Below, piece after piece: positions 4,242-30,738 of a stretch of 30,738 nt of DNA. The notes beneath the pieces were generated by a model that made no database searches, was not told the origin of the DNA, and was given only the letters and a program-made list of their open reading frames with translations. The stretch spans positions 1 through 30,738 of the IMG/VR virus record IMGVR_UViG_3300032308_002388; one strand, 5' to 3'. The stretch's first letter is position 1. Every line of letters begins with the position of its first letter. The DNA is from a virus. Both the position numbers and the translations under genes were made by a program.

Positions 4242-4255
4242 AGAGTAGCAGTATA

Positions 4256-5155: not shown

Positions 5156-5166
5156 GAGTTGAACTT

Positions 5167-5171: not shown

Positions 5172-5182
5172 ATATTGTAGTT

Positions 5183-5210
5183 ATTATACAACACTCTTGC
5201 CCGTTGTCAA
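5183..5210 (-). promoter_or_regulatory. consensus sigma70-type promoter for the gp55-47-46 operon
   Basis: On the minus strand a perfect -35 box TTGACA (5205-5210) is followed by a 16-bp spacer and a perfect -10 box TATAAT (5183-5188). The predicted transcription start is near 5176, leaving a leader of about 20 bases with the AGGAG at 5167-5171. This is the kind of promoter that unmodified host RNA polymerase would use, consistent with early expression of a sigma factor needed later. Confidence 0.88.
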
Positions 5211-12518: not shown

Positions 12519-12893
12519 ATGCCTACATTCATTGGATTTAACACAATCAATCAGTACAAAAAATTTGTTCTCACAGATTTTGAGTTGATCAAACGAGATC
12601 TCCTGAATTATTTCAATATACGCCAGGGAGAAAAAGTTGGCCGACCAGATGTGGGAACCACGATGTGGAATTTGATTTTTGAACCGCAAACAGAACAAAC
12701 AGCAGATCTCATCATACAGGAAATGCAACGCATTGTTGGGCAAGATCCAAGGATTTATTTGTCCGATGCCACAGCATATCCACAAATCAACGGTATCTTG
12801 GTTGAACTAGAAATACAAACAGTACAAGGCACTAATGCTGAGCGACTGAGTGTGTTTTTTGATCAACAGACTCGATCAGCGTCCTACGTATAA
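12519..12893 (+). CDS. 25: gp25-like baseplate wedge protein
   Basis: This 124-aa protein belongs to the gp25/GPW family, the conserved core wedge protein of contractile-tail baseplates (also in type VI secretion). It shows the family pattern: an early helix with DLLNYFNIRQGEKVGRP, then VGTTMWNLIFEPQTEQT with the invariant Glu-Pro pair at 55-56, then a basic helix and closing beta strands with LVELEIQTVQ. In T4 the residue after Glu-Pro is reported as Arg; here it is Gln, although the helix before GRP is intact. Length is close to T4 gp25 (132 aa). It is encoded just before gp6, its direct partner in the wedge core. Confidence 0.93.
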   Translation: MPTFIGFNTINQYKKFVLTDFELIKRDLLNYFNIRQGEKVGRPDVGTTMWNLIFEPQTEQTADLIIQEMQRIVGQDPRIYLSDATAYPQINGILVELEIQTVQGTNAERLSVFFDQQTRSASYV

Positions 12894-12937: not shown

Positions 12938-15900
12938 ATGGCTAAGACAACACGACAAACAGCGATATTCGGAGTAGAAGATTGGAAACGCATCTACACG
13001 ACATATCGTGAAGCGGATTTCCAAAGTTACGATTTTGAAACTCTACGCAAGAGTTTCATTGATTACATTCGTCTATATTATCCAGAAAATTTCAATGACT
13101 ATATTGAATCTTCTGAATTTGTTGCCTTGTTGGATGTCATGGCCTTTATGGGTCAAGCACTGGCATTTCGTAACGATTTAAATATCCGTGAAAATTTCAT
13201 AGACACTGCCGAACGTCGAGACTCAGTGGTCAAACTGGCCAACTTGATCAGTTATACAGCCAAGCGCAATCAAGAAGCGCAAGGCTATCTCAAAGTATAC
13301 AACGTATCCACCACAGAAAATGTCATTGACTTCAATGGTGTGAATCTCAGTGGCGTGACAGTGAACTGGAACGACACTACCAATGCCAATTGGCAAGAGC
13401 AATTTACTGTGATTGTTAACTCTGCCTTGGTTGACAGCCAGCGATTTGGCAGACCTGGATCTTCAAAGAATATTCTAGGTATCGAAACACAAGAATACAG
13501 CATCAACTTGGTACCTGGCTTTTTACCAGTGGTTCCATTCACTGCCACTGTAGACGGCAACTCAATGACCTTTGAAGCAGTGAGTTCTACCACACAAAAT
13601 GCAGATTTTGTTTATGAGCCTGCACCAAGACCGTCGGGCATATTCAATGTGATGTTCCGCAACGATCGTTTGGGATTTGCCAGTCCCAACACAGGATTCT
13701 TCTTTTATTTCAAACAAGGCAGTCTACAAAACTTAGATTTTAATCTTGGAGAACGTATTTCCAATCGAGTGGTCAATGTCAACATCGAAGGCATCAACGA
13801 AGATGACGTGTGGTTATATCAGCTGGACGATGTAGGCAACATTCAATTTGAGTGGGACAAGGTACCCAACCTGTATTCGGCTGCGGCAGAACAATTGGCA
13901 CCCGACGCTAGAAAATTTTTCAGCGTGACCAGCCGTACCAATGATCAAATCAATTTAAACTTTGGCGATGGTGTGTTTACAGAGATTCCAGTGGGCACAT
14001 TCCGTACCTATGTTCGCGCTTCCAACGGATTACAATACATCATCAATCCAGAAGAAATGCAGGCCATACAGATTTCCATTGGTTATATCAGCCGCACAGG
14101 AAAACTAGAAACCATTACGTTTACTTGTGGACTAAGTCAGCCAGTGTCAAATGCGGCCAGCAGAGAAAACATTGCTGACATCAAGCAACGTGCTCCTGCT
14201 CGTTACTACACACAGAATCGCATGGTCAATGGCGAAGACTACAACAACTTTCCATACACCTTGTTTGGTACTATTATCAAATCCAAAGCAGTAAACCGTA
14301 GTTCTATTGGTACCAGCAGATATCTTGATCTAGTAGATATCACCGGAAAATATTCATCCACAAATATATTTGGCAGTGATGGATTGATCTATGAAAACAA
14401 CGCATCACCAAGTTTTACATTCACATTCATTGACAAAAATGACATTGCCAATGCCATAGTCAACGAAATTGAACCAGTGCTGTCCAGTCGTGGTATGTTG
14501 GAATTTTATTATCAAAATTTTCTAAGACCAGACTTGAATCCTCCCATTGGCATTGAGTGGGTACAAAGCACCACTGCTGCCAATGAAACCACAGGATATT
14601 TTCAATTCATTGCATCGCAGGCACCTGCGCCAATTGGCCCCAACACCAGCGACAACAAGAAATACATGACTGAAGGATCATTGATCAAGTTTGTTCCGCC
14701 AACAGGCTATTATTTTGATCAAAACAACAGATTAAAACTGGGATTACCTGCACTGCCCAACGACAAAGTTGTGTTGTGGGCCACAATCAGCAATCTGATT
14801 CTAGATGGCACTAACTTTGGCAACGGAAACTTTGCCGACGGAATTGGTCCGGTCACGCTGAACAATTTCATCCCCACAGATGCTATACCATCTCAAGTAA
14901 TTCCAACATTTATAACAGATTTGCCTTCATCGGTTGAACAGTCAATGACCGAACAAATTGAACTGTATAGAAATTTTGGACTGGGATTCAACAATCTCAC
15001 CGGTGAGTGGTATGTGATCACTGCACAGAATCTCAATCCTGCAATCACTTTCAGTCTAGCCAATCAGCAAAATCAAAGTGGGCAAGGTCTTGACAATTCC
15101 TGGTTGGTAGCGTTTGAAACCGATGGTGTAACATACACTGTCACATACCGAGCACTACAACGATTTTGGGCCAGCATACTTCAAACTCGATTCTTCTACG
15201 ACGGATCGCAAGCAGTGTATGATCCACGCACAGGCACGGTGATCAATGATTTTATCAATTGCTTGAAAACAAACAACTTGCCAGACACATCATTGCCACA
15301 AAACAGCGATATCATCATGGACATCATTGGTCAGCCCATTCAAAGCGATGGATTTGTTGACGATTTTCAAGTACAGATCAGCTTCAAAGATTTTGACAAT
15401 GATGGTGTAGCAGATGATCCTGACTATTTTGAAACCATTGTGGCTCCAGACGTCAATCCAACCAGCAAGTTTGTTTTCTTCCAACAAACCGTGGACTTTG
15501 ACAATCTTGAACGCTTTCTGCCACTGGCTGAAGGAGCAGTGATCAGCGAGTACGCTACCAAAGATCAAATAGAACTGATCAAGGCCGAATACGGTGACGG
15601 TCAATATTTTTATGCCTACAACGAGTTGGTATTTTACGAACTAACCGTTGCCTACAACGGTGTAAGAACACTTAATCAAGTCACAGGTCTGTTGGCCAGA
15701 ACTGGTCGCCAAGATTTGTTTTTCCAATACCGACACAATGCACCACTGAGCCGCAGAATTGATCCGGGCTCGTCCAACATCATTGACTTGTACTTGGTGA
15801 CCACAGCGTATTACAATTCTTATCAAAACTATATCAAGGATTCCACAGGAACTGTGCCAGAGCCAAGTCCTCCAACCATTGATGAACTTACCACATCCTA

Positions 15901-16348
15901 CAACAGTTTACAACAATACAAAATGATCAGCGACAACGTTATTTTAAATTCCGTGGTATTCAAGCCCTTGTTTGGAAACAAAGCCACTCCTGAATTGCGA
16001 GCCACATTGAAAGTGGTACGTAGCAATAATTCTGTGGTCAGTGTCAGCGAAATCAAGAGTAGCATGGTCGCTGCCGTTAATGAATATTTTACCATTGATA
16101 AATGGGATTTTGGCTTGACATTTTATTTCTCTGAGTTGGCAGCATATCTCCACCGAGAACTTGGTGACATTATTTCAACCGTGGTATTGGTACCACAAGA
16201 CCCGCTTAAGAGTTTTGGTGACTTGTACGAAATACGTTGCGCGGCAGATGAGATATTTGTCAATGCTGCCACTGTCAACGACATTGAAGTGATAGATGCC
16301 TTGACTGCCAGTGAGTTGCGCACAGCACCCAACAGCGGAGTAGTGTGA
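12938..16348 (+). CDS. 6: gp6-like baseplate wedge protein (baseplate J-like), oversized
   Basis: This 1,136-aa protein is the wedge subunit that forms the inner ring of the contractile-tail baseplate with gp25 and gp53. The N-terminus (DWKRIYTTYREADFQSYDFE, then YIESSEFVALLDVMAFMGQAL) is typical of gp6 in T4-like phages. The baseplate-J-like core includes NLNFGDGVFTEIPVGTFRTY near residue 341 and NRMVNGEDYNNFPYTLFGTI near 428. A conserved-looking C-terminal region follows LKVVRSNNSVVSVSEIKSSM and YLHRELGDIISTVVLVP. T4 gp6 is 660 aa, so about 450 residues are extra. These fall mainly between 500 and 900, where acidic and beta-rich segments such as FKDFDNDGVADDPDY (a DxDxDG-like calcium-loop pattern) appear. 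GGAAGG precedes the ATG. Confidence 0.92.
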   Translation: MAKTTRQTAIFGVEDWKRIYTTYREADFQSYDFETLRKSFIDYIRLYYPENFNDYIESSEFVALLDVMAFMGQALAFRNDLNIRENFIDTAERRDSVVKLANLISYTAKRNQEAQGYLKVYNVSTTENVIDFNGVNLSGVTVNWNDTTNANWQEQFTVIVNSALVDSQRFGRPGSSKNILGIETQEYSINLVPGFLPVVPFTATVDGNSMTFEAVSSTTQNADFVYEPAPRPSGIFNVMFRNDRLGFASPNTGFFFYFKQGSLQNLDFNLGERISNRVVNVNIEGINEDDVWLYQLDDVGNIQFEWDKVPNLYSAAAEQLAPDARKFFSVTSRTNDQINLNFGDGVFTEIPVGTFRTYVRASNGLQYIINPEEMQAIQISIGYISRTGKLETITFTCGLSQPVSNAASRENIADIKQRAPARYYTQNRMVNGEDYNNFPYTLFGTIIKSKAVNRSSIGTSRYLDLVDITGKYSSTNIFGSDGLIYENNASPSFTFTFIDKNDIANAIVNEIEPVLSSRGMLEFYYQNFLRPDLNPPIGIEWVQSTTAANETTGYFQFIASQAPAPIGPNTSDNKKYMTEGSLIKFVPPTGYYFDQNNRLKLGLPALPNDKVVLWATISNLILDGTNFGNGNFADGIGPVTLNNFIPTDAIPSQVIPTFITDLPSSVEQSMTEQIELYRNFGLGFNNLTGEWYVITAQNLNPAITFSLANQQNQSGQGLDNSWLVAFETDGVTYTVTYRALQRFWASILQTRFFYDGSQAVYDPRTGTVINDFINCLKTNNLPDTSLPQNSDIIMDIIGQPIQSDGFVDDFQVQISFKDFDNDGVADDPDYFETIVAPDVNPTSKFVFFQQTVDFDNLERFLPLAEGAVISEYATKDQIELIKAEYGDGQYFYAYNELVFYELTVAYNGVRTLNQVTGLLARTGRQDLFFQYRHNAPLSRRIDPGSSNIIDLYLVTTAYYNSYQNYIKDSTGTVPEPSPPTIDELTTSYNSLQQYKMISDNVILNSVVFKPLFGNKATPELRATLKVVRSNNSVVSVSEIKSSMVAAVNEYFTIDKWDFGLTFYFSELAAYLHRELGDIISTVVLVPQDPLKSFGDLYEIRCAADEIFVNAATVNDIEVIDALTASELRTAPNSGVV

Positions 16349-16349: not shown

Positions 16350-19300
16350 ATGGCCAATACAAGAATACGCACAGTAGATTTCTTACCAGAAATTTTCCGC
16401 ACACCAACCAACAGACAATTTTTGTCTGCAACGTTGGATCAGTTGGTCCAAGACCCAAAACTCAAGCCCACACAGGGATTTATTGGACGTCGTGTTGGCC
16501 CCGGAGTCAATCCACAAGACAACTATGTTCTTGAACCAACAAGATCACGCACCGACTATCAGTTGGAACCAGGCACTTGTTTTTTAACGCCAAACACCAA
16601 CACAGTAGCAGATGCACTGACTTATCCTGGACTGGTTGACTCTATTGGAGTCAAGGGCGGCAACACCACACGAGCAGACAGACTGTTTGCCAGTCAGTAT
16701 TATTCTTGGGATCCGTTTGTTGATCTTGACAAATTTGTAAACTTCAGTCAATACTATTGGCTTCCTGGCGGTCCAGATTCAGTGGATGTGTTTGCCAATC
16801 CAATCCCGCTGGAAGATGACTTTACAGTCACAAGGAATCCCAGCAACTACACATTCAGCGGAGTGCCCGGCACTAACCCCACTCTTACCCTGGTACGTCA
16901 AGGAAGCTACGAGTTCAATGTTCAACAAACTGGACATCGTTTTTGGATACAATCAGTGCCTGGCACATCTGGAACACTGCCACAGACCCCAAATCAAAGC
17001 AGTAGAGAGGTCCTGGGAGTAATTAACAATGGCGACGACAATGGTACAATAACATTCAATGTTCCGTCCAAGTCAGCACAAAATTTCTACTATCAGTTGG
17101 ACGATGCAGGGGTTGTGGACTTTGCAACCAACATTGAATTTGATGAAATCAACAATATCTATCTTGACGATTTTATCAAGAAATACGGCGGCATCGACGG
17201 AGTCACCGACATTGGTGGCCGAACCATAATTTTTCTCAACGATGCTGGATGGTTTTACACAGGACTATTTGACAGTGCCGGTCAGCCCTATGACAGTGTT
17301 CCCTTCGACGAAACCATAGAAATCACACTGGACAGCCAAAAATACAGTGTGTGGCGCATCAATTTAGTATATGATGACACACTAAATCCCTACATTAGAC
17401 TCACTGTAGAACAGCCAGTAAACAATTTAAGTAAACTGTTGGTTGAATACGGAGACCAGTATTCAAATATCTATTTTTATAAAACAGCATCTGGAACATT
17501 TGAACGTATTCCACTGATCACTGCTGACCTTGACTATCTGTATTATCAAGATGCTGACAATCCAGAATTGTTTGGTATCATCAGATTGGTAGACAACGCA
17601 CAAGAAGTTCCAATTGTCATTGATGATGCGGCCACTCCTATTGTGACACTGATTGGATCGGTCATAGTAGGTAATACACTGACTTTTAGTACCTCTGTGG
17701 GCGGAGCTCCGCTGCCGGGTATGGTACTCAGTGGCGGTGGTGTCACAGAAGGAACATACCTTGTCAGCGGTACAGGAAATACCTGGGTGTTGAATCAACA
17801 AGCCACAGGTACACCTACCACAGCGAGACTGGTCAATATCATTGGATCCAGTGAATATACCAGCCCTAACGGCGTGGTATTCTCCAATGGACTCAAAGTA
17901 CAGTTCCAAGGTCCAACTATACCCGAATCGTATTCTGGAAATGAGTACTACGTTGAAGGTGTAGGTGAATCAATTACCTTGTTGCCAGTCACTAGATTTA
18001 TCACTCCAGAGACTTACACTAGATCAACTACAGTTCCCTACGATTCCACACCCTACGATTCCACACCCTATGATGAGTCGTTGAATGCTCCACTGGATCA
18101 AGATTACATCACAATCAACCGAGCCAGTCTTGACTTCAACGCCTGGAGCCGTAGCAATCGTTGGTTCCACATTGACATCATAAATGCCACAGCAGAGTAC
18201 AACGGATCAGTGCCTGTACTAGACAATAATTTCCGTGCCAAGCGTCCAATTTTGGAATTTGTTCCTAGCCTAAAATTATTTGATTTTGGAACCGAAGGGT
18301 TACCACCCATAAACATCATTGATTTTAGAGCCACCGACGCCATGAGCGATATCAATGGTACCATTGGCTACAGCATTGATGGGTATGCGTTTCAAACTGG
18401 CACAAGAGTAATTTTTGCAGCCGACCGAGATCCGGAAGTAAGAAATAAAATTTTCCAAGTCACATTTATTACACCGTCAGGGTCTGGGGTCCCAATTATT
18501 GACCTACAACCAGCCGATCTTAATGCACCCGACCAACTGCGTGATCAGAGCGTGTTAGTCACCAGCGGTATTACTCAGCAAGGAACCACTTACTGGTACA
18601 ACGGCGAAGTGTGGGTTCCAGCACAACAAAAAAGCAACATAAATCAGCCGCCTCTGTTTGATGTATTTGATGAAAATGGAGTAAGCTATGGCGACCGAAT
18701 AGTGTATCCCAGCACATCATTCGCAGGAACCAAACTGTTTAGTTATGCACCCGGCGAAGGTGTAACTGATTCAATCATTGACCAGCCACTGAAATATCTC
18801 ACAATCAACAATGTAGGAGACATTGTATTTGACAACAATCTCAACGTTGATACATTTGTGTATGTTGAAGATACCATCAGTGTTGAAGTTCCCATCAATG
18901 ATGGCATAGTTCGACAATATCAAAATCGTACAGAGTTTGCCAAATTACTGGGTTGGAAAACAGCAGAAACACAAGTAGTTTCTCGACAAAGTTTTAGTTT
19001 CAATTACACCACAGGCCAAGACCTTGTGATTGATATTCCAGTTGATACTGACTCTTCAGCGATTCCAGTTAAAGTATTTGTAAATGCCTTGTTTGTCAAC
19101 CCAGACGAGTATACCTATGTTGTAAACGCAAATAACTCGACTACAATTTCTTTTATCAATGAACCGCCCAGTGGCGTTTCAGTAGAAGTCAGTGTAATCA
19201 GCAATGTGGCAAGTCCTACTGGTTTTTATTCTGTACCGTTGAATCTTGAAAACAATGCAGTGAATGCCACAGTGCCCGACCTCACACTGGGAACCATACG

Positions 19301-22300
19301 AAATCATTATGGTACAATCTGTCAGAACTTGGCAGACTTCCAGGGCGATATAAATGGTCCTAACAATTCTAGAGACCTTGGTGACATAATTCCGTTTGGT
19401 CAGATCATAATGCAACAAAGTGCTCCATTGACCATGGCCAGTACTTTCATCAACAATCCAGGCTATGATTTTTTCCGATCATTGGAGTATTCTTCAACTC
19501 AATACGAAAAATTTAAAAATGTCCTAATGGACACAGTGGTCAAAAACAATTTTCAAAACATGACCGTTGCTGAGATTTTAGATGAGTGCATGATACTGAT
19601 CAATCTTGGCAAAAACGAACTCACTCCATTTTACTGGACTGATACTATTCCCACAGGTGAAACATACGAACAAACAGTGTATACAGTGACACCAATCACT
19701 GGCACCACGTTTGACACACTGTACACTTATAATTTTGACGAAGCCAACTATCGAGCTATTCTAGTATATCTCAATGATGAAATATTGTTAGGTGACGACA
19801 TTGAATACAGTGTGGCTGCCGACGGACCTCGATTGACTGTGCTGGTACCACTCACTGTTGGAGACGTGTTGACCATTCGTGAGTATGCTACCACGTTTGC
19901 AAATTATGTGCCATCAACTCCTACCAAGTTAGGACTGTATCCTTCCTATGTTCCAGAGTTATTTTTAGACGACACCTATGTACAGCCAACCTTTGTTATC
20001 CGTGGGCATGATGGATCAATCACTGTGGCCTATAACGACATACGAGATCAGATACTGCTGGAATTTGAAAAACGTATCTACAACAATCTCAAAGTTGAAA
20101 AAAATCCTATTCCGTTGGTACTGGATGATGTGGCTCCGGGTCAGTTCCGTACCACAGATTATACTCAAGGTGAAATCACACAGATTCTAGGAACCAGTTT
20201 CCTGGCCTGGGTTGGTGCAAACAAATTGCCCTACCGAGAACAAGACTACATTGAAGACAATGAGTTCACCTGGAACTATAGTGCCAGCCAAAACAAATTA
20301 AACAATCAACCATTGCTGGGCGCATGGAGAGGAATTTATAACTATTTCTACGACACAGATGCACCCAACACTCGTCCCTGGGAAATGCTAGGGTTCAGTG
20401 AACGACCGACCTGGTGGGAAGAAGAATACGGTCCTGCGCCATATACCTCGGGCAACTTGGTTCTTTGGGAAGATCTTGAAGCAGGTCGTGTAATGGATCC
20501 AGCAGGATCCTATGTGCTGAACAAATACAAACGTCCTGGACTAACATCAGTGATACCATCGGGCACTGAAGGACAACTACTGTCGCCATTTGAAGTCATG
20601 GTGGGAGAATACGATCAAGGCAGTTTCCGTAAGAGTTGGACAGTGGGAGATGATGGGTCAGTTGAAGCATCATGGAGAAAATCCAGCGCCTGGCCGTTTG
20701 CAGTTCAAAGATTGTTGGCACTGACAAGACCTGCTGATTATTTTGCATTGTTTGCCGACAGAGACCTCTACAGATACAACAACGAGTTTGGCCAGTATTT
20801 GTACAACAATCGATTCCGTTTACAACCAGAAAACATTGAAATCTATGGCAATGGAGTTATCAAGAACAGTTATATCAACTGGATAGTTGACTACAATCGT
20901 CAAACCGGTCTTGACAGCACAGCTGATCTCAAAGTAGTATTAGAAAACATAGATGTAAGACTTTGCTATCGTCTGGCTGCTTTCTCTGACAAACAATACA
21001 CCAAAATTTACACAGAAAAATCCAGCCCCAACAGTTTGAACACCAGTTTGTTGTTGCCCGACGAAAGCTATCAATACCTGCTGTACAAGAATCCTACAAT
21101 ATCAACCTTGACATGGAGTTCGGTGATCATACAACGAACTGAACTAGGGTATGCAGTGTATGGATACAGCACCACAACACCTTACTTTGAAATCCTAGTC
21201 AGCGTACCCAATGGAAATTATCGTACTATCAAAGTGGCCGACACTGTGGTACGTGCCCCCAACGATTTTAGCAACACTGTGGTTCAAGTTCCATATGGAT
21301 TTGAATTTACCACAGTGAACTCAGTGGTGGACTTCTTGCTCAGCTACGGTGCGTTCCAGGAACGTCAAGGCATGACCTTTGAAGATAAAGACAACGCTAG
21401 AATACTGAACTGGAGTCAAATGGCTCAAGAGTTCATTTATTGGAGTCGTCAGGGCTGGGGCCCCGGCAGTCTTATCAACATCAACCCAGTGGCCAACACA
21501 CTGAATGTGATGAGACCCAATCAGATCGCCGAGTCACTGAGTATCACTGCACCAGAAGACATATTACTGAATCAAAACAAACAAGCTCTGCAAGGGCAAG
21601 ATTATGTAGTAGAAAGATTTGAAAACGACCTTGTGTTACGTGCAGTCAACAACAACACGTTCAGCTACCTCAACGCCAAGTTCACAGCCTACGAACACAT
21701 GATTGTGTTGGACAACATCAGTATTTTTAATGATTTGATTTACAATCCAGCCACGGGCGCCCGCCAGAGTCGTTTGCTGTTTATAGGCTACACTACCTAT
21801 GACTGGAACGGCAGTCTAGATGCACAAGGATTCATACTGAACCAGGACAATGTGGAACCATGGTCTCCAAACCGTGCTTATTCTAAAGGACAAATTGTCA
21901 AGTACAAAGATGCTTATTGGTCAGCAGTAAAAATTATTCCTCCCACTGACAAATTTGATTTCAATGTATGGATTAAGAGTGATTACAATCTCATACAAAA
22001 AGGCCTGTTGCCCAATGCCGCAACCAATTCCGAACAGGTACGAAATTTCTACAACACCACGCAGGCAAACTTTGAGCGTGATGCTGATTTGTTTGCATTT
22101 GGATTGATTGGTTTCCGTCCTCGACGTTACATGCAGAATTTAAATCTTGACGACATCAGTCAGGTCAACATCTACAGTCAGTTCTTGGGTACCAAAGGAA
22201 CCACACAGGCCACAGACATATTCACCAAGGCCAATCTTGGAAAAGAAGTTGCCGAGTATAATATTTTTGAAAACTGGGCAATCCAGCGAGCAATCTATGG

Positions 22301-25300
22301 TGCCAATGCCAACCGCAGTTATTTTGAACTACGACTCAACGAAGCACTGCTGTTGGCCAACCCGTCAACAGTGGAAATCATCAACCCACAACAGTTCAGC
22401 GAAGCAGATCAAACTGTGTTGGTCAGCAATATCTGGAAAGAAAGTTATCCAATCACATCACCGGACATCTTGCCAACCACGGATCTCAGTGCCACAGACA
22501 GTCAGTTGCCCAGTGCCGGATATGTAAATTGGGATGATGCAGATATCAAACTGTTTAATTTTTCTGATCTCACTGCAATCATCAATGACATTGAGAACAT
22601 TGCAGTAGGCACCAGCGTTTGGGTGGCCAAAGACAATGCCTATGATTGGAACATTTATCGCAACAATCTGGTGATCTACAACATGACCCAGGTTCGTGAC
22701 AATCTCAACGGAACCTGCACATTTACATTTGCAGGACAGCACGGATTATTGGTTAATTCACAAATTGTGATCAAGTATTTTGACCAAGGCATTGATGGTG
22801 CATATCGAGTGCTCAGTGTACCCAGCCTCAAAACAGTCACAGTGGAGTTAAGTCTGGGTGGTGCAGTCACACAAGTCACTGGCATTGGTGTTTGTTTTGT
22901 ACTTGAAACCATGCGTGTGGCCCAGGCCAGCGATGTTTCAAACTTGGTTTATTCCAACAGCTTGTTGCCAGGCAACAAGGCCTGGGTAGACGACGATGGC
23001 ACAGGCCACTGGATTGTGTACGAAAAAATTGATCCGTTTACCAATGGTACCGAACTGGTTCCTCTTGAACCTGTGATCAGTTCTAGATTTGGAACATCCA
23101 TAGCACAAGGCTTTGGCGGGTTGGCAGCCATTGTTGGTGCACCGGGCTACGGCAATGAAGTAGGCGCAGTATATGGGTACACCAAAGGTGGAACCACATC
23201 CTATGTTGAAAGTGTAGTGTTGACCATGGGAGCCAACAATTTTGTTGGCTACGGCGATTCTGCTGCCTGTGGCAACAACAGTTGGGGTATAGCCGGCGCT
23301 CCTAGAAGCTGGGCCAATCAAGGCTATGCTGTAGCGATCTATCGCAATCCTGATTCAGGCAACTTCATACAAAGTCAACTACTGACTGAAGTACCTTACA
23401 GATTATATCAAGCCACAGGCAATGGTGTGACTACTAGTTATAACCCATCAGCTTCTATCACCATCACTGATCCTACCAAGGTTGGTGTGGTCATCAATGA
23501 TGTGGTACAAGTATATGGAACCAACTGGACTTATTCAGCTCCCAATGTTGTGTTTACATCAGTGGCCACCAACAGCACTCCAGTGGCAGCACCGCCCAAC
23601 GGATCGCAAATTAACATTTTCTTGTACGATGAGTATTCATACAGCGTAGCTATCAGCCCAGACGAACGTTGGATGTATGTTGGAGCTCCAGCTGGCAATC
23701 GTGTGTATGCCTACAACAAAGTTGATGTACAGCTACAAGCCAAAAACTTTGTTGGCGATGGGTCAACAACTACATTCTTTATTGCAGATACCATAGTGGT
23801 AGACAATGATTCTGCAACTGGCGGTATTGGATCGCAACAGCTTGGAGTCACAGTCAATGATCTACCAAAAACAGCCAATGTGGACTGGACCTATGACGGT
23901 GAAAATGTTGTGTTTGAAATACCACCAAACACCGGTGACGAAATACGTATAATACGTTTGCAGAGCAAGACATTCTTTCCAACTTTGCCTGTGACCACCT
24001 TCAACATTGAAGAAATCTACACAGCAACAAACATCTACAGTTTCAGCATGTATGTCAATGACGTACTACAACGTCCCAACATGGACTACACGTTTAATAC
24101 AACAACTAAAACTGTGACCTTCTTGCAAGGAGTCACAGGAACCATTCTAGCAACCAGCATTTCATATTGGGAATACGTTGATTATCTAACAGTGGCCGGA
24201 TTGCCAACTACTGCAAGATTTGGGCATTCGCTGACAACCACAACAGATGGTCGTCAAATTGTAATAGGCACCCCTAACGACACAGTTGATGGAAAATTGT
24301 TGGCAGGACAAGTGTATGTGATTGATCGCTGTGTGGAAAGATTCACAGTAACAAATCCATCCATCACTACTTACAGCACACTGAGAAACTTCAGCGGCCC
24401 TGCCACAGTCAAAGTCAATGCTACATATTTGATCCCTGATGGATCCAACAATAACGGCCAATTTACCGAAGACAATGCCAACACTGTGACCATTGATTAC
24501 CCATTGAATGTGGGTGACATCATCGAAATTGAAACCAATCAATTTGAACTCATGCAGGCAGTGGCTTCAAATGCACCGCAAGCTGGCGCTGTATTTGGCA
24601 GAGCAGTTGACCAGTGTCCTACCAATTGTAGTTTATACATTGGTCAACCCAACGATTCCTCTGTGTTACCAGAAGCAGGCAGTGTAGAAAGATTTGTAAA
24701 TCAAAACAGATTATATGGAATAATCACAGGCGTTGAACAAAATCCTACATTAACGCCCGGTGATACTGTGCGAATCAACAACGTTGACATTGAAGTGTCT
24801 ACCCCAACAGCATGGAACAGTGCCATTGCCTGGGCCGCAAATACATTTGTGATCGACGGAGCAACCATCTATCGTTCTATCAGAACAGTGCCATCGTCAG
24901 TGAGTATTGATGATACCACTTACTGGAAAGAGTCTAGTTGGGTAGAACTCTACGCCAACGATATCAATGTGGCTGCCGCTCCTGTGCAGTCAGGGCCAAC
25001 TGCTGGCTTGGTATTGATACCCAATGTTAGTGCATCAGTCAACAATGGATACCTGACCATCAGCATTGCCAACTCAAACGCAGTCGTACCATTTACACAG
25101 TTGTTGGTATTGCCAGGAATTGGCAATGCTTATAACGACCTTGGCATGGAACCCATGTATTACACACAAACAGTGGAAGCGCCAAATCAGATTGCGTTTG
25201 CGCACTTTGGTGAGTCTGTGGCGATCAGTGATGATTCTCTCACACTGGTAGTAGGATCACCACAAGGCACAGCAGCCAAGCCCACTACGTTTGACAATGG

Positions 25301-28300
25301 AACAACATACTTTGACAGCAAGGCCACAGAATTTTTTGATCTGTTATCAGAGAGCGGAGTTGTTTACACCTATGACTTGTTGTCAGCGGCCAATGGATCC
25401 ATAAGAAACCCAAGTAAGTTTGTGTTTGGTCAACAAATTTACGATGAAACATTGCAGTCATTGGATGAGTTTGGCACAGCAGTCAGCTATGTCAATGGCA
25501 TATTACTGGTTGGATCACCACAGGATGACCTAGGCGACAGCATAGGCGACTATGGTCGTATCACACAGCTGAACAACATAGATAGACTAGCGGCCTGGAA
25601 TCCAATCTACAGAGAAACACCAATTGTAGATGTTAAACTGCTCAATTCTGTGTTTGCATACGACAAACTGGAATCAAAAGTCACACAATACTTTGATTTT
25701 ATTGATCCATTGCAGGGCAAAATACTAGGATCGGCCAGACAAAACATTGATTACATTGGAGCTCTTGATCCAGCCAACTACAATTTTGGAGTGGTAAACA
25801 ACTTTGGCGACACATGGAATGAAAGCTATCTTGGTCAAATGTGGTGGGATCTCAGCACAGTAAGATTTATTGATTATCATCAAGGCAGTATTGAGTACGA
25901 AAGCCGACGTTGGGGACAGTTGTTTCCAGGCAGCTCAGTAGATGTATATCAGTGGATTGAAAGCACAGTTCCACCAGCTTCGTATGATGGGCCAGGCACA
26001 GTTTACAGCACCACAAGTTACGTGGTCACTAGCAAGCTCAACAATGATGGCTTGTTTGCTACACGTTATTTCTACTGGGTCAAAGGCATACGAGAAGTGA
26101 TCAGTCGTGCCAAAAAAACACTCAGTGCCGAGGCAGTGGCGCAATACATTGAAAATCCACGCGGTTCGGGTATTCCTTACATCGCGGCGTTGTCACCCAG
26201 TGCTGTGGCCTTGTACAATGCGCGGCCTTACATATCTGCACAAGACACCATCTTGCATGTTGAATTTGATAAAATAGCCAACAGCGACAACGTTCACGTG
26301 GAATATGATCTTATTCCATCAGGTGATCCTGATGGATTCCTGGGCGCTGGCCTGTATCGTAAAATGCTGGATTCATTCTGCGGTGAAGATACTCTGGGCA
26401 ACAAGGTACCTGATCCACTGTTGAGTCCGGCCGAATTGTATGGTGTACAGTTCCGCCCACGTCAGAGCTTTTTTGCAGATCGATTCTTGGCCCTGCAAAA
26501 CTATCTTGAGCGAGCCAACAACATACTGTTGCAGTTTCCAATCAGTGACAGTCGTCCTTTCAACTTGCTCAACAGCGAAGAGCCGGAACCAACATCTGCA
26601 TCTGGTGAATGGAACAAGCGTGTGGCAACATACACTGAATTGACATATCAGGATCTTGGCGAAGTACCAGTTGGCTACAAATATCTTGTGGTCACAGACA
26701 GCACCAACAAAGGATTGTGGACCATATACACTGTGACTCCTACCATTGATGGAATATCCAAGTACCTGTTGTTGAGTCGTGTTCAAAACTACGACACCAA
26801 ACAGTATTGGGAATATGTTGATTGGATTCAACCAGGATACAATGCCAGCATCAAGCCTGTGGCTGAAGTTGCTACATTCAATGATCTGCAAAGACTCACA
26901 GTACCCGAAGGCGCCAGCGCCAAGGTCACACGCAACAGTTTTGCCAAGTTTGAGATTTATCAATATCTCGACGGCGAGTGGATTCGTGTAGTTCTTGAAG
27001 ATGGTACTATACAAATTAAAAACACCATTTGGGACTACACAGCAGGAAAATTTGGATTTGACGTGGAAACCTACGACAGTCAATACTTTGACCAATACCC
27101 TGCAATCGAAACACGACAAATAATAAAAGCCATCAATGAAGAATTGTTAGTAGATGAACTACAAATATTCCGTAATCAACTGTTGATGCTGGTATTTGAG
27201 TATGTGTTGACAGAGTTCAATGCGCCAGACTGGTTGTTCAAGACCAGTCTCATAGATGTTGACCACAAGATACGAGAACTGTTGCCTTACCAAATTTTCC
27301 GTCAAGACAATCAAGACTTTGTGTTGCAGTACATCCAGGAAGTCAAGCCTTACCACGTGAAGATCAAAGAATTCAATCTCAAGTACTACGGCTTGGATAC
27401 CTACGATGGCACAGTCACAGACTTTGACTGCCCAGCATATTTTAACAGCAACATTGATGGATTTGAAGCGCCAGCTCTAGACGACACAAATCCGCCAAAG
27501 TACAGCAACAGCGTGCCGTCATCATCAGGACTGTGGCAAGAGCTACCGTGGAGTCAGTGGTATCAAAATTACACATTAACACTGCAAGGAGTTGATGTCA
27601 TCGAGTCAGGTGCTGGATACACAGTGCCTCCTGTTGTGACCGTTGGCGACGAATGGCAAGCCAACACAGCATACTCAACTGATCAGCAGATTTATTATCT
27701 AGGAAATCTTTACACAGTACAAGACGGTGGAACCACCGGCGACAAAGCCCCAACGTTTACTAGTGGAGTACAACTCAATGGCACAGCCACCCTGGCCTAT
27801 GCAGGATCAACTGCATTTGCTGTGGCTCGAGTTAATACTGCAGGACAAGTGGTTGAGATAATTGTAATTGAAACAGGTTCAGGATACACTGTTACTCCTA
27901 CAATCACCATCAGCGGCGGCAACGGGCTGGGTGCTCGCGCAGTTCCTGTGTTGGGTAACGAGCTGGTTAGAAATTTCTTGACCACACTCAAATACGATCG
28001 ATACAACTACAACAGTCAAGTGGTTGATTGGCAAACCAACACTGAGTATCTTGAAGGACAGTTGGTACGATTCCAAGATCAAGTTTACAGTGTTGACGCT
28101 GATGTCAATAGCGGTTCTATCTTTGATCCTGAGCAATACACTCTAGTAGATCAAAGCACACTTGATGCCGCGGATCGTGTGATTGGTCTTTACACTCCTA
28201 CTCCCAACGAGCCTGGACGCGAATTGGCTCAAGTCATGTTGGGCATTGATTATCCAGGTGTGCAAGTCATGGGGCCTGACTTCAGTCAAAACACAGGCTA

Positions 28301-30738
28301 TGACGTAGGCAACTTTGATGTCAACCCGTATGATAATATTGACTATGGTCCTGAAGGTCGTCCAACCTATGATCCTGCTATTCTTGACGCAATTTTTGAA
28401 AGCAGTTTCTTGGACCCATACCTTGGAACACGTGCCACAGATATCAACATTGATGGCGGCGCATTCATTGACACATACTCAAGTCATGCTCCTGAAGAAC
28501 TGGTGCCTGGATCAACCTTTGATACCCTAGATTTCCGTGTGTACACACGTCCGGGTGCTGACTGGGAAGGCAACGGTCACGGATTCAACATCAAATCTAT
28601 CAGTCTTGGATATACCACAGTAGACAATGCCGTGAGCTTTGCCAACGTAATGGCACATGCAGTGGCAGTGAGAGCTGTCAACGTCAGCAACAGAGTATCG
28701 CTGATTCCTGTAGAACAATACATCGTGGACTGGGCAACTCAGACTTTGACTGTCATCGACGGCGCAGCCCCAGGGGACATAATAAATGTAGAAGTGTATG
28801 GAATTGGTGGTGGAAGTCAGCTCTACAAAGAAAGTTATCCAGGCCAATTTGTGGGCAACAGCTTGACTATTCCAGTGATCACAGCAGTGAATTGGACAAC
28901 ATTCACAGTGTATGCTCAAGGCGATTATGTTCGATACAATAATGATGTATACCGAGTCAACCAAACGATTAGTAGCGGCTCATCATTCAACTTCATATTT
29001 TACACACTGGTAGATTCGGAAAGTGTGTTGGATGACATTTTGATTCTGGTCAATGGTGAAATCATCACCAACTATACCTATGCACCGACCAATGGATACG
29101 AAACTCGCATAAGTTTTGACGACACTTATGATTCCACTGACTGGGTGGTGATCACAGTGCTAGGTGCCACCGCACCCGAGCGTAGTTGGAGCTTCCCACA
29201 AACTGAGTATTTTGTGTATGACGGCAGTACCGCTACCTATACACTGGACAACAGTTTACAAGGTACCAACGAAATCAATGTCATAGTTGAGCGTGACGGA
29301 CAACGATTACGTCCTTCAGAAAGCGTGGAATATTTTGGCGATGGCAGTAGCATGGGACCATACTACCTACCAACTCGAGGCAAGGTAGTGGGCGGCTTGA
29401 TTTCTCCCACAGATGTACGAGTGTATGTGGACCAAGAATTGGCAGTGCAGAACATTGACTACACAATCAGTGCATGGGATGGCAGCAGTGATTTATATGT
29501 GGAATTTTTTACACCACCACCAGTGGGCGCCCAAATTATCATTGCATTATCCACAGATGCTGACTATACCATCAATGGCAATCAACTCACACTAAGAGTT
29601 GGTGCATCGTTTGATGCTGTGATAGCTGTCACCACCTGGAATGACACCAGCGAACAAGGATTACTAACACAGGTATTTGTAGGTCCAACTCAAACTGGAA
29701 CCACAATAGGACAAGCCTATGATACCACAGATTTCGATCAGGGTAACGTCACAGGAGCTCCGGGCAGTTTTGACTACAGTACAGGTACTGTGGTAGCAAC
29801 CAATACATTTGATACAGGACGACCAATACTCAATGACGAACGTCTATGGGTCACCATCAACGGTTGGAGATTGATTGCCGGTGAAGACTTTACTGTAGAC
29901 GGAACCAATGTGATATTGGGCGGCAGTATCATTGGACCAGCTGATGTGGTTGCGATCACCAACTTTACACAAACTGTGACTCCGGAAGCCATTAGCTTTA
30001 GAATATTCCAGGACATGTTGGGAATACAGCGCATGTATCGTATTCTTCCTAGAGATACCACAGTATTGACACAGCCATTGTCCAGCACTGCTGACATCAT
30101 CTATGTACAAGATGCTGGCAGTCTCAGTCAACCCAACCCTGCCAACAATATTTTTGGTCAGTTGACAATCAATGGCGAACGCATCACTTATCGCACTCGA
30201 AATGTAGTTGACAACACTGTTTCTGGACTGCGCCGAGGAGTTGCAGGCACAGCTATAACTTCTCACTCAGTAGACAGCTTTGTATATGACATTGGACCAG
30301 GCGAGGCATTACCACAACGCTATCAACAAAATTTACTGTCAAATGTTTTCCTTGGCAATGGCTCCACACAAACCTACACCACAGACATTGGATTTGTCAA
30401 CGAAATTGATGTCTACTTGGGCGGTTCAGTAAGATGCTTTGTGGGAGATACAGTGGGAACGCTGATTGAAGTACCACAAGATGACTTTACCATTGTCAGT
30501 GTTAATCCAATCACTGTGCAATTGAATTTTGTTCCAAACGCTGGGCAGATATTCCGATTGACGTACACTCCAATTGTTGGTGCAACATTGTCACTCACAG
30601 TGCCCGCCAGCGGTGCAACCAGCCTTTGGGCCGCAGAATTTTCTGCAACTGATTTGATATTGCAATCCACAGATACTTACGAAATAACCGACTTGAATCC
30701 AATTGTTGTGGAGTTTGACACACCTGTTCCTGTAAAAC
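16350..30738 (+). CDS. giant modular virion/baseplate adhesin, C-terminus beyond the window
   Basis: The frame from the ATG at 16350 was read to the window end without a stop, giving at least 4,796 residues. The ATG is one base after the gp6 stop, with GGAG (16337-16340) 9 bases upstream. The N-terminus (RIRTVDFLPEIFRTPTNRQF, then FVDLDKFVNFSQYYWLPGGP) recalls giant structural proteins of environmental T4-like phages. Landmarks: a PWEMLGF...PTWW...YG block near residue 1343, a CBM5/12-like module near 1838, seven FG-GAP-like repeats at 2246-3077, a helical block with DWLFKTS and EVKPYHVKIKEF at about 3600-3680, and repeated tail-fibre-like beta modules to the end. There is no signal peptide or membrane segment, and cysteines are few. 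Position after gp6 is where T4 has gp7, so the N-terminal part might serve as a wedge component while the rest is an adhesin. Function is inferred, not shown. Confidence 0.88.
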   Translation, partial: MANTRIRTVDFLPEIFRTPTNRQFLSATLDQLVQDPKLKPTQGFIGRRVGPGVNPQDNYVLEPTRSRTDYQLEPGTCFLTPNTNTVADALTYPGLVDSIGVKGGNTTRADRLFASQYYSWDPFVDLDKFVNFSQYYWLPGGPDSVDVFANPIPLEDDFTVTRNPSNYTFSGVPGTNPTLTLVRQGSYEFNVQQTGHRFWIQSVPGTSGTLPQTPNQSSREVLGVINNGDDNGTITFNVPSKSAQNFYYQLDDAGVVDFATNIEFDEINNIYLDDFIKKYGGIDGVTDIGGRTIIFLNDAGWFYTGLFDSAGQPYDSVPFDETIEITLDSQKYSVWRINLVYDDTLNPYIRLTVEQPVNNLSKLLVEYGDQYSNIYFYKTASGTFERIPLITADLDYLYYQDADNPELFGIIRLVDNAQEVPIVIDDAATPIVTLIGSVIVGNTLTFSTSVGGAPLPGMVLSGGGVTEGTYLVSGTGNTWVLNQQATGTPTTARLVNIIGSSEYTSPNGVVFSNGLKVQFQGPTIPESYSGNEYYVEGVGESITLLPVTRFITPETYTRSTTVPYDSTPYDSTPYDESLNAPLDQDYITINRASLDFNAWSRSNRWFHIDIINATAEYNGSVPVLDNNFRAKRPILEFVPSLKLFDFGTEGLPPINIIDFRATDAMSDINGTIGYSIDGYAFQTGTRVIFAADRDPEVRNKIFQVTFITPSGSGVPIIDLQPADLNAPDQLRDQSVLVTSGITQQGTTYWYNGEVWVPAQQKSNINQPPLFDVFDENGVSYGDRIVYPSTSFAGTKLFSYAPGEGVTDSIIDQPLKYLTINNVGDIVFDNNLNVDTFVYVEDTISVEVPINDGIVRQYQNRTEFAKLLGWKTAETQVVSRQSFSFNYTTGQDLVIDIPVDTDSSAIPVKVFVNALFVNPDEYTYVVNANNSTTISFINEPPSGVSVEVSVISNVASPTGFYSVPLNLENNAVNATVPDLTLGTIRNHYGTICQNLADFQGDINGPNNSRDLGDIIPFGQIIMQQSAPLTMASTFINNPGYDFFRSLEYSSTQYEKFKNVLMDTVVKNNFQNMTVAEILDECMILINLGKNELTPFYWTDTIPTGETYEQTVYTVTPITGTTFDTLYTYNFDEANYRAILVYLNDEILLGDDIEYSVAADGPRLTVLVPLTVGDVLTIREYATTFANYVPSTPTKLGLYPSYVPELFLDDTYVQPTFVIRGHDGSITVAYNDIRDQILLEFEKRIYNNLKVEKNPIPLVLDDVAPGQFRTTDYTQGEITQILGTSFLAWVGANKLPYREQDYIEDNEFTWNYSASQNKLNNQPLLGAWRGIYNYFYDTDAPNTRPWEMLGFSERPTWWEEEYGPAPYTSGNLVLWEDLEAGRVMDPAGSYVLNKYKRPGLTSVIPSGTEGQLLSPFEVMVGEYDQGSFRKSWTVGDDGSVEASWRKSSAWPFAVQRLLALTRPADYFALFADRDLYRYNNEFGQYLYNNRFRLQPENIEIYGNGVIKNSYINWIVDYNRQTGLDSTADLKVVLENIDVRLCYRLAAFSDKQYTKIYTEKSSPNSLNTSLLLPDESYQYLLYKNPTISTLTWSSVIIQRTELGYAVYGYSTTTPYFEILVSVPNGNYRTIKVADTVVRAPNDFSNTVVQVPYGFEFTTVNSVVDFLLSYGAFQERQGMTFEDKDNARILNWSQMAQEFIYWSRQGWGPGSLININPVANTLNVMRPNQIAESLSITAPEDILLNQNKQALQGQDYVVERFENDLVLRAVNNNTFSYLNAKFTAYEHMIVLDNISIFNDLIYNPATGARQSRLLFIGYTTYDWNGSLDAQGFILNQDNVEPWSPNRAYSKGQIVKYKDAYWSAVKIIPPTDKFDFNVWIKSDYNLIQKGLLPNAATNSEQVRNFYNTTQANFERDADLFAFGLIGFRPRRYMQNLNLDDISQVNIYSQFLGTKGTTQATDIFTKANLGKEVAEYNIFENWAIQRAIYGANANRSYFELRLNEALLLANPSTVEIINPQQFSEADQTVLVSNIWKESYPITSPDILPTTDLSATDSQLPSAGYVNWDDADIKLFNFSDLTAIINDIENIAVGTSVWVAKDNAYDWNIYRNNLVIYNMTQVRDNLNGTCTFTFAGQHGLLVNSQIVIKYFDQGIDGAYRVLSVPSLKTVTVELSLGGAVTQVTGIGVCFVLETMRVAQASDVSNLVYSNSLLPGNKAWVDDDGTGHWIVYEKIDPFTNGTELVPLEPVISSRFGTSIAQGFGGLAAIVGAPGYGNEVGAVYGYTKGGTTSYVESVVLTMGANNFVGYGDSAACGNNSWGIAGAPRSWANQGYAVAIYRNPDSGNFIQSQLLTEVPYRLYQATGNGVTTSYNPSASITITDPTKVGVVINDVVQVYGTNWTYSAPNVVFTSVATNSTPVAAPPNGSQINIFLYDEYSYSVAISPDERWMYVGAPAGNRVYAYNKVDVQLQAKNFVGDGSTTTFFIADTIVVDNDSATGGIGSQQLGVTVNDLPKTANVDWTYDGENVVFEIPPNTGDEIRIIRLQSKTFFPTLPVTTFNIEEIYTATNIYSFSMYVNDVLQRPNMDYTFNTTTKTVTFLQGVTGTILATSISYWEYVDYLTVAGLPTTARFGHSLTTTTDGRQIVIGTPNDTVDGKLLAGQVYVIDRCVERFTVTNPSITTYSTLRNFSGPATVKVNATYLIPDGSNNNGQFTEDNANTVTIDYPLNVGDIIEIETNQFELMQAVASNAPQAGAVFGRAVDQCPTNCSLYIGQPNDSSVLPEAGSVERFVNQNRLYGIITGVEQNPTLTPGDTVRINNVDIEVSTPTAWNSAIAWAANTFVIDGATIYRSIRTVPSSVSIDDTTYWKESSWVELYANDINVAAAPVQSGPTAGLVLIPNVSASVNNGYLTISIANSNAVVPFTQLLVLPGIGNAYNDLGMEPMYYTQTVEAPNQIAFAHFGESVAISDDSLTLVVGSPQGTAAKPTTFDNGTTYFDSKATEFFDLLSESGVVYTYDLLSAANGSIRNPSKFVFGQQIYDETLQSLDEFGTAVSYVNGILLVGSPQDDLGDSIGDYGRITQLNNIDRLAAWNPIYRETPIVDVKLLNSVFAYDKLESKVTQYFDFIDPLQGKILGSARQNIDYIGALDPANYNFGVVNNFGDTWNESYLGQMWWDLSTVRFIDYHQGSIEYESRRWGQLFPGSSVDVYQWIESTVPPASYDGPGTVYSTTSYVVTSKLNNDGLFATRYFYWVKGIREVISRAKKTLSAEAVAQYIENPRGSGIPYIAALSPSAVALYNARPYISAQDTILHVEFDKIANSDNVHVEYDLIPSGDPDGFLGAGLYRKMLDSFCGEDTLGNKVPDPLLSPAELYGVQFRPRQSFFADRFLALQNYLERANNILLQFPISDSRPFNLLNSEEPEPTSASGEWNKRVATYTELTYQDLGEVPVGYKYLVVTDSTNKGLWTIYTVTPTIDGISKYLLLSRVQNYDTKQYWEYVDWIQPGYNASIKPVAEVATFNDLQRLTVPEGASAKVTRNSFAKFEIYQYLDGEWIRVVLEDGTIQIKNTIWDYTAGKFGFDVETYDSQYFDQYPAIETRQIIKAINEELLVDELQIFRNQLLMLVFEYVLTEFNAPDWLFKTSLIDVDHKIRELLPYQIFRQDNQDFVLQYIQEVKPYHVKIKEFNLKYYGLDTYDGTVTDFDCPAYFNSNIDGFEAPALDDTNPPKYSNSVPSSSGLWQELPWSQWYQNYTLTLQGVDVIESGAGYTVPPVVTVGDEWQANTAYSTDQQIYYLGNLYTVQDGGTTGDKAPTFTSGVQLNGTATLAYAGSTAFAVARVNTAGQVVEIIVIETGSGYTVTPTITISGGNGLGARAVPVLGNELVRNFLTTLKYDRYNYNSQVVDWQTNTEYLEGQLVRFQDQVYSVDADVNSGSIFDPEQYTLVDQSTLDAADRVIGLYTPTPNEPGRELAQVMLGIDYPGVQVMGPDFSQNTGYDVGNFDVNPYDNIDYGPEGRPTYDPAILDAIFESSFLDPYLGTRATDINIDGGAFIDTYSSHAPEELVPGSTFDTLDFRVYTRPGADWEGNGHGFNIKSISLGYTTVDNAVSFANVMAHAVAVRAVNVSNRVSLIPVEQYIVDWATQTLTVIDGAAPGDIINVEVYGIGGGSQLYKESYPGQFVGNSLTIPVITAVNWTTFTVYAQGDYVRYNNDVYRVNQTISSGSSFNFIFYTLVDSESVLDDILILVNGEIITNYTYAPTNGYETRISFDDTYDSTDWVVITVLGATAPERSWSFPQTEYFVYDGSTATYTLDNSLQGTNEINVIVERDGQRLRPSESVEYFGDGSSMGPYYLPTRGKVVGGLISPTDVRVYVDQELAVQNIDYTISAWDGSSDLYVEFFTPPPVGAQIIIALSTDADYTINGNQLTLRVGASFDAVIAVTTWNDTSEQGLLTQVFVGPTQTGTTIGQAYDTTDFDQGNVTGAPGSFDYSTGTVVATNTFDTGRPILNDERLWVTINGWRLIAGEDFTVDGTNVILGGSIIGPADVVAITNFTQTVTPEAISFRIFQDMLGIQRMYRILPRDTTVLTQPLSSTADIIYVQDAGSLSQPNPANNIFGQLTINGERITYRTRNVVDNTVSGLRRGVAGTAITSHSVDSFVYDIGPGEALPQRYQQNLLSNVFLGNGSTQTYTTDIGFVNEIDVYLGGSVRCFVGDTVGTLIEVPQDDFTIVSVNPITVQLNFVPNAGQIFRLTYTPIVGATLSLTVPASGATSLWAAEFSATDLILQSTDTYEITDLNPIVVEFDTPVPVK
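18036..18065 (+). repeat. perfect 15-bp tandem duplication inside the giant gene
   Basis: CCCTACGATTCCACA occurs twice in tandem (18036-18050 and 18051-18065). A diverged partial third copy follows (18066-18077). It encodes PYDST-PYDST-PYDE and preserves frame. Exact DNA identity suggests a recent slippage event. Confidence 0.9.
20376..20470 (+). other. conserved-looking PWEMLGF / WW / PYTS block of the giant protein
   Basis: Residues about 1343-1374 contain PWEMLGFSERPTWWEEEYG followed by PYTSGNLVLWEDL. The density of Trp, Tyr and Pro and the turn-like spacing suggest a conserved folded motif or ligand-binding surface. From memory it recurs in giant structural proteins of marine phages; I cannot assign a named family. 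Confidence 0.45.
21861..21977 (+). other. CBM5/12-like carbohydrate-binding module 1 in the giant protein
   Basis: From residue 1838 the pattern is W-(x)5-AYSKGQIVKYKDAYWSAV, then a proline-containing loop and a closing W. This is the aromatic signature of chitinase-type CBM5/12 modules (W...Y..G..V.Y....Y.a...P....W). Binding of a glycan is inferred. Confidence 0.6.
23085..25578 (+). other. seven FG-GAP-like repeats: predicted seven-bladed beta-propeller with inserts
   Basis: Repeats begin at 23085 (RFGTSIAQG, IVGAPGYG), 23250 (YGDSAACG, IAGAP), 23637 (SYSVAIS, YVGAP), 24216 (RFGHSLTTT, VIGTP), 24594 (FGRAVDQ, YIGQP), 25206 (FGESVAIS, VVGSP) and 25470 (FGTAVSY, LVGSP). Each has the FG-x-(S/A)-V start, a (V/I)G-(A/S/T/Q)-P turn and usually a closing G-x-V-Y-x-Y strand, as in the FG-GAP_2 family. 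Seven is the blade number of integrin-alpha propellers. Spacing is irregular (55-204 residues) because other modules sit between blades. Clear DxDxDG calcium loops are not present. Confidence 0.78.
24813..24950 (+). other. CBM5/12-like module 2, inserted between propeller repeats 5 and 6
   Basis: From residue 2822 the pattern is W-NSAIAWAANTFVIDGATIYRS, then a loop and DDTTYWKES before a W. It is weaker than module 1 but keeps the aromatic spacing. Confidence 0.45.
27654..27809 (+). other. CBM5/12-like module 3, flanked by GxGYT segments
   Basis: From residue 3769 the pattern is W-QANTAYSTDQQIYYLGNLYTV, a DGGTTGDKAPTF loop and LAYAG. It lies between two similar GxGYT-V-x-P segments (GAGYTVPPVVTV before, GSGYTVTPTITI after), which suggests insertion into, or linkage of, a repeated beta module. 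Confidence 0.55.
28029..28154 (+). other. CBM5/12-like module 4
   Basis: From residue 3894 the pattern is W-QTNTEYLEGQLVRFQDQVYSV, then an SGSIFDPEQYTLVD ending. It closely parallels module 5 (ending FIFYTLVD), so the two are probably duplicates. Confidence 0.55.
28893..29016 (+). other. CBM5/12-like module 5
   Basis: From residue 4182 the pattern is W-TTFTVYAQGDYVRYNNDVYRV, SGSSFNF and FYTLVD. It has the same start, spacing and ending as module 4. Confidence 0.55.
29031..30581 (+). repeat. C-terminal run of tail-fibre-like beta modules
   Basis: Modules start near 29031 (ILVNGEIITNYTY), 29268 (IVERDGQRL, weak), 29409 (VYVDQELAVQNIDYTI), 29829 (VTINGWRLIAGEDFTV) and 30396 (VYLGG, diverged). 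The shared pattern is a V-x-(V/I)-(N/D)-G-like turn, 6-9 residues, (D/E)-(Y/F)-T, a second strand, a P-x-G-x-x-I turn and a final strand. This pattern is common in phage tail-fibre stalk or adaptor regions. The run continues past the window edge. Confidence 0.6.

Follow-up and report, generated by a model that had tools for sequence, protein, structure and literature searches.

A predicted seven-bladed FG-GAP_2 propeller inserted in a baseplate-linked giant protein of RaK2-related jumbo phages

We analysed a window of viral DNA, i.e. all 30,738 bases of the IMG/VR virus record IMGVR_UViG_3300032308_002388, whose last open reading frame (ORF) begins at position 16350 and runs off the contig end at 4,796 amino acids (aa). 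Sequence comparison and structure prediction together establish that this giant virion protein, linked to the baseplate wedge of an uncultivated, RaK2-related clade of jumbo phages, has received a domain between two conserved backbone segments; residues 2243-3091, about midway along a protein of roughly 4,900 residues, are predicted to form a seven-bladed, calcium-loop-free beta-propeller of the FG-GAP_2 family and of integrin-alpha type. A sequence-only reading of the window had already proposed an integrin-alpha-type propeller of seven FG-GAP repeats in the baseplate-linked giant protein of a contractile-tail phage, and Pfam PF14312, AlphaFold and Foldseek agree with it. The propeller seems to be a permanent component of the virion that was gained once in evolution, and not an exchangeable host-recognition tip.

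Seven FG-GAP-like repeats are contained in residues 2243-3091, five of them strict and two degenerate. Their FG, YG or YS positions (2247, 2301, 2429-2431, 2624, 2749, 2953 and 3041) lie within a residue or two of those counted earlier by eye. The strict pattern, defined as FGx[SA][VIL]...[VI]GxP, is observed five times, compared with a mean of 0.004 and a maximum of 1 in 2,000 whole-protein shuffles, and it does not occur in the rest of the 4,796-aa protein; the degenerate forms are YGDSA...IAGAP (repeat 2) and YSYSV...VGAP (repeat 3). With the PF14312 (FG-GAP_2) profile, the whole protein reaches 38.2 bits and the propeller region alone 46.9 bits (gathering cut-off 23); the best stretch is blade 6, and all 15 relatives scanned are matched. 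The Pfam support lies in PF14312 and not in PF01839 (FG-GAP), for which no match is listed for the giant protein at E up to 10. With profiles from 78 homologues, blade-to-blade comparisons by hhalign are mostly good among blades 1, 3, 4, 5 and 6 (best probabilities 50-96%; blade 5 is weaker in some directions), and blades 2 and 7 show weak similarity to the others. In integrin alpha subunits, DxDxDG calcium loops are present in the A-B turns of several blades; the same alignment contains them in two of the 78 homologues, in blade 4 only, and none in the window protein; the suspicion that the classical calcium loops are absent was therefore correct. Because these loops fail, the term integrin-like holds for the fold and the repeat family, not for integrin membership. 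In blade 5 an invariant CxxxC (C2756, C2760; window 24615-24629) occupies the A-B loop, where an integrin blade may have a calcium loop. The blades are placed as follows.

23076..23225, + strand: propeller blade 1, residues 2243-2292, FGTSIAQGFGGLAAIVGAP (motif, blade profiles, second AlphaFold model)
23238..23384, + strand: propeller blade 2, residues 2297-2345, YGDSAACGNNSWGIAGAP, degenerate motif (motif, blade profiles, model)
23625..23729, + strand: blade 3, strands A-C, residues 2426-2460, YSYSVAISPDERWMYVGAP (motif, blade profiles, model)
24159..24194, + strand: blade 3, strand D, residues 2604-2615 (model)
24207..24332, + strand: blade 4, strands A-C, residues 2620-2661, FGHSLTTTTDGRQIVIGTP (motif, blade profiles, model)
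24516..24566, + strand: blade 4, strand D, residues 2723-2739 (model)
24582..24704, + strand: blade 5, strands A-C, residues 2745-2785, FGRAVDQCPTNCSLYIGQP, with the invariant CxxxC in the A-B loop (alignment conservation, model)
25149..25184, + strand: blade 5, strand D, residues 2934-2945 (model)
25194..25442, + strand: blade 6, residues 2949-3031, FGESVAISDDSLTLVVGSP, long B-C loop (PF14312, model)
25458..25622, + strand: blade 7, residues 3037-3091, FGTAVSYVNGILLVGSP, including the strand AWNPIYRE (motif, model, propeller-free relatives)

The AlphaFold model based on a 71-sequence alignment reaches a predicted local distance difference test score (pLDDT) of 90.5 and a predicted template-modelling score (pTM) of 0.90 for the propeller, with four strands in each of blades 1-6 and three in blade 7. 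It supersedes a first model from 15 sequences (pLDDT 69.7), which was too poor for clean matching to the PDB; that model shows a strand 3083-3089 (WNPIYRE), a possible fourth one for blade 7, and a strand 2221-2226 (WIVYEK), and either may be the velcro partner of blade 7. Integrin alpha heads occupy ranks 1-3 and most of the top 50 in the Foldseek search of the PDB (E from 1.7e-9, probability 1.00); for these heads of 440-452 residues, the target template-modelling (TM) scores are 0.54-0.60 and the alignment spans the whole propeller. From this full-length alignment to seven-bladed integrin heads we infer that the ring is probably closed. Among viral models, the matches are FG-GAP-type propellers of giant viruses, whose highest target TM, 0.79, belongs to a 279-residue fragment, and a protein of Atu_ph07 annotated as hemagglutinin (target TM 0.65). 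The sequence matches in the PDB are weak (E 0.05-0.9) and nearly all to integrin alpha-IIb. The cyanophage A4 portal-tail protein 9k09_U is also found among the fold matches, with a low TM of 0.15-0.19.

According to a comparison of the model strands with the homologue alignment, extra beta domains separate blade 2 from blade 3 and also occur within the C-D hairpins of blades 3, 4 and 5.

23385..23624, + strand: insert between blades 2 and 3, residues 2346-2425, beta module (mean column occupancy 19% among 71 homologues)
23730..24158, + strand: insert in the C-D hairpin of blade 3, residues 2461-2603, two related beta modules (hhalign Ig1-Ig2 98%; DSSP)
24333..24515, + strand: insert in the C-D hairpin of blade 4, residues 2662-2722, beta module (hhalign)
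24705..25148, + strand: insert in the C-D hairpin of blade 5, residues 2786-2933 (alignment, model)

The modules at about 2346-2425, 2461-2536, 2537-2603 and 2662-2722 are members of one family, with hhalign probabilities of up to 98.5% and a less strong connection to 2662-2722. Similar stretches are found in other parts of the giant protein (4324-4398 and, more weakly, 1107-1176 and 4474-4536). In the propeller region of three relatives, the T7 tail-fibre N-terminal family is matched. In integrin propellers, the A-B loops are on the same face as the C-D loops, opposite to the B-C and D-A loops; by analogy, the three decorated hairpins would lie together on a single face of the phage propeller. 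Outside the propeller, the chain contains three CBM5/12-like stretches.

21861..21923, + strand: weak CBM5/12-like stretch, residues 1838-1858 (E 0.0031, below cut-off)
28029..28091, + strand: CBM5/12-like stretch, residues 3894-3914 (E 2.7e-6, above cut-off for the segment)
28890..28976, + strand: CBM5/12-like stretch, residues 4181-4209 (E 7.7e-6)

Both flanks of the propeller are common to RaK2, PBECO4/121Q, PA5oct, Atu_ph07, Phosso, SCTP-2 and Vibrio 2.275, and they define the backbone of the protein.

19230..23054, + strand: backbone before the propeller, residues 961-2235, common with the RaK2, PBECO4, PA5oct and Atu_ph07 homologues (tblastn E down to 8e-101; alignment)
25623..27569, + strand: backbone after the propeller, residues 3092-3740, common with RaK2-like homologues (tblastn matches)

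The counterpart of window residues 2035-3095 measures 193-487 residues in most relatives and 1,420-1,427 residues of unrelated sequence in the two rhizobial phages Atu_ph07 and Phosso. When the region between the flanks was searched with blade profiles in cultured jumbo phages, no convincing match and no hidden propeller was found. The propeller lies between WVDDDGTGHWIVYEK and AWNPIYRE. At AWNPIYRE, for which Atu_ph07 has the similar stretch DWNTIREETPMVD, similarity to the propeller-free relatives resumes; the insertion point is defined by the homologues of RaK2, PBECO4, PA5oct and Atu_ph07. The homologue gp355 of PA5oct is a virion protein according to mass spectrometry. Two further proteins detected in virions by the same technique, gp245 of phAPEC6 (382 kDa; PMC7247149) and CBB_236 (PMC5259590), are probably homologs as well, because they are listed beside the gp6-like wedge proteins gp244 and CBB_237, respectively, and gp245 also has the corresponding size. 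No relatives of the giant protein were found in bacterial and archaeal genomes, which therefore give no hint of the host.

The link to the baseplate derives from the gene setting. Upstream of the giant ORF and on the same strand, genes for gp53-like, hub, gp25-like and gp6-like proteins make up what is, judged by profile matches, a T4-type baseplate cluster.

6925..7227, + strand: gp53-like baseplate wedge protein (phrog_7145 E 6.6e-21)
10175..12508, + strand: gp5-like baseplate hub protein (phrog_13211 E 1.7e-30)
12519..12893, + strand: gp25-like baseplate wedge protein (PF04965 E 7e-7; phrog_43/261)
12938..16348, + strand: gp6-like baseplate wedge protein (phrog_10646 E 2e-282, phrog_219 E 1.6e-20)
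16350..30737, + strand: giant virion protein ORF, >4796 aa, cut by the contig end, directly downstream of gp6 (phrog_10938 virion structural protein, E 3.2e-294)

Intact homologues of the giant protein have 4796-5117 aa, so little should be missing at the contig end. The order hub-gp25-gp6-giant is common to the window and its relatives, and the giant gene directly follows gp6 also in Atu_ph07, Phosso, PA5oct, PBECO4, Vibrio 2.275 and RaK2. This place corresponds to that of gp7 in the T4 order 6-7-8. A comparison of three backbone segments with a single T4 gp7 sequence yielded an hhalign probability of at most 1.3%; because no homology to T4 gp7 is detected, the protein can be called a gp7 analogue by position only. 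At one related locus (L016) the giant ORF is broken at about 10279, where there is a true frameshift or else an error of sequencing. Further upstream in the window, on the opposite strand (1-5194), SbcC- and SbcD-like genes, a radical-SAM protein and a late sigma factor are encoded.

A scan of viral contigs with the backbone alignment provided 63 usable loci for a phylogenetic tree, which does not include Atu_ph07, SCTP-2 and Vibrio 2.275. The 47 propeller-bearing sequences all fall into one exclusive group (support 0.996), all 16 sequences scored as propeller-less are placed outside it, and divergent members of the group keep recognisable repeats. The simplest reading of this topology is that the propeller was gained once and then retained; because the root of the backbone tree is uncertain, a single loss elsewhere is a conceivable alternative. 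Blade and core distances are correlated (r = 0.945), and 20 out of 22 supported splits of the blade tree are also present in the core tree. For twelve close pairs, the median ratios of nonsynonymous to synonymous substitution rates (dN/dS) are roughly 0.05 in the core, 0.09 in the blades and 0.10 in the inserts; segment-wide values are at or below 0.165 in all pairs, while single sites may still differ. Hence, the propeller is under purifying selection and co-evolves with the backbone. Neither diversifying selection nor modular exchange, both traits of receptor-binding proteins, was observed, apart from one possible exchange around the locus L047: the blade tree groups it with L058, L096 and L106, contrary to the backbone tree, which may reflect recombination of the propeller.

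With somewhat better than even confidence, we favour the propeller as a permanent platform on the baseplate wedge, inserted in a RaK2-related giant protein. According to this model, the domain would be a disc whose decorated hairpins serve for packing against, or for docking, other components of the baseplate or the fibres; direct binding of a receptor would be a subsidiary function at best. Both chain ends would exit the disc near the same blade, and because of this the insertion could have occurred without disturbing the backbone. Monophyletic presence, trees congruent with the backbone and purifying selection are the reasons why a fixed structural or docking domain fits better than a variable receptor-binding tip. 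Several points weigh against the platform. The CBM5/12-like modules in the same chain would also fit a surface-binding role, and so would the faster divergence of blades and inserts, which is 1.2-1.5 times that of the backbone. The TM-scores to integrins are moderate, as can be expected because of the large inserts, and the closure of the ring is deduced from alignment and not read from coordinates. In addition, no structure was found for any homologue of the giant protein, and a sequence search of three backbone segments against the PDB returned nothing convincing.

The alternative originally put forward, a host-recognition head, is a possible but not a better-supported explanation, and we regard it as rather unlikely. 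In this case the top face of the propeller, formed by the B-C and D-A loops, would bind a protein or glycan on the host surface with the help of the CBM5/12-like modules and thereby trigger or stabilise adsorption. FG-GAP domains are common in adhesion proteins, and the face with the B-C and D-A loops is the ligand face in integrins. It agrees with such a role that the B-C loops are on average less conserved than the A-B loops (about 0.58 versus 0.67), that propeller and inserts evolve somewhat faster than the backbone, and that propellers in receptor-binding proteins have precedents in gp45 of phi11 and in the seven-bladed gp131C at the baseplate periphery of phiKZ, the role of the latter being unproven (PMC4901313). 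Vertical inheritance together with the backbone, purifying selection in all pairs, the absence of the integrin metal loops and the lack of propeller loss in any descendant examined argue in the opposite direction. As a rule, no part of a phage is exchanged more readily than its receptor-binding tip. More doubtful still is a broader proposal, namely that an uncultivated jumbo-phage clade uses this calcium-loop-free integrin-type propeller in the baseplate wedge, with its inserted carbohydrate- or protein-binding modules, as the main adhesive or trigger surface, so that an analogue of the integrin head would have evolved in the core baseplate and not on a fibre. A catalytic domain active on glycans or peptidoglycan, which would thin the cell envelope, is improbable. 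In its favour, many propellers other than those of the FG-GAP type are glycan-active enzymes (PMC4901313), and weak fold matches to lactonase-type propellers came with the poorer first model, but the top matches of the better model are non-enzymatic integrin heads, the near-invariant residues are mostly structural glycines, prolines and aromatics, and no enzyme family matched the propeller region convincingly. We attach hardly any probability to chance repeats or a low-complexity beta-rich region without a toroid; the weak similarity of blades 2 and 7 to the others could be explained in this way, but the shuffles, the PF14312 matches in all relatives scanned, the model scores and the fold matches led us to reject it.

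With the propeller, an uncharacterised family of very large virion proteins gains an annotated fold and a defined insertion point, and an integrin-type FG-GAP propeller is seen fixed as an integral domain of the contractile-tail baseplate in one jumbo-phage lineage. RaK2, PBECO4 and PA5oct are cultured relatives without the propeller, so that the isolation of a propeller-bearing phage would permit a clean comparison to address what the insertion does. A literature search of limited coverage, combining FG-GAP with baseplate, tail fiber or jumbo phage, found no paper on an FG-GAP propeller in a phage baseplate protein.

Among known systems, the propeller of integrin alpha subunits (heads of alpha-V, alpha-5 and alpha-IIb) is similar in its seven FG-GAP repeats and as the full-length top fold match in the PDB. 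The phage propeller differs in that it lacks the DxDxDG loops and a PF01839 match, sits inside a virion protein and carries beta modules in its hairpins. The PF14312 propellers of giant viruses, uncultured phages and Atu_ph07 (AUZ95081) belong to the same repeat family and have the same fold in viral models, but AUZ95081 and several other viral matches are small stand-alone proteins, whereas the propeller of the window is embedded in a baseplate-linked giant protein. FG-GAP_2 matches above the cut-off occur in both Atu_ph07 and Phosso. AUZ95081 (L125 9019-10200) is annotated as a streptococcal hemagglutinin; profile and fold matches identify it as an FG-GAP_2 propeller. In the Sinorhizobium phage Phosso, most of the 55 FG-GAP_2 matches of the genome are found in the hypothetical giant proteins gp107 and gp108 (L124 4339-13827 and 13901-24979; about 3,160 and 3,690 aa), which could consist of propellers in series, in a phage related to that of the window; gp129 and gp130 are smaller FG-GAP_2 proteins. 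The RaK2-like giant virion proteins (phrog_10938; RaK2 gp465, PBECO4 gp538, PA5oct gp355, Atu_ph07 AUZ94962) share the homologous backbone on both sides and the position after gp6. They are devoid of FG-GAP repeats, however, and have between the flanks a short region in RaK2, PBECO4 and PA5oct or unrelated sequence in Atu_ph07 and Phosso. Baseplate propellers are also known from gp131C of phiKZ, which is seven-bladed and located at the baseplate periphery of a jumbo myophage, and from the five-bladed gp45 of phi11; both are separate proteins, and FG-GAP homology is not described for them there (PMC4901313). The nozzles of SU10 and T7 are likewise tail propellers, but belong to short-tailed phages and to the nozzle position, and no FG-GAP repeats are mentioned for them in the part of PMC9509320 consulted. 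The SU10 nozzle is described as seven-bladed, with immunoglobulin (Ig)-like domains that separate blade 2 from blade 3 and a loop on blade 1 at which the fibre docks (PMC9509320), and on this description it may serve as a close precedent for a decorated, fibre-docking tail propeller.

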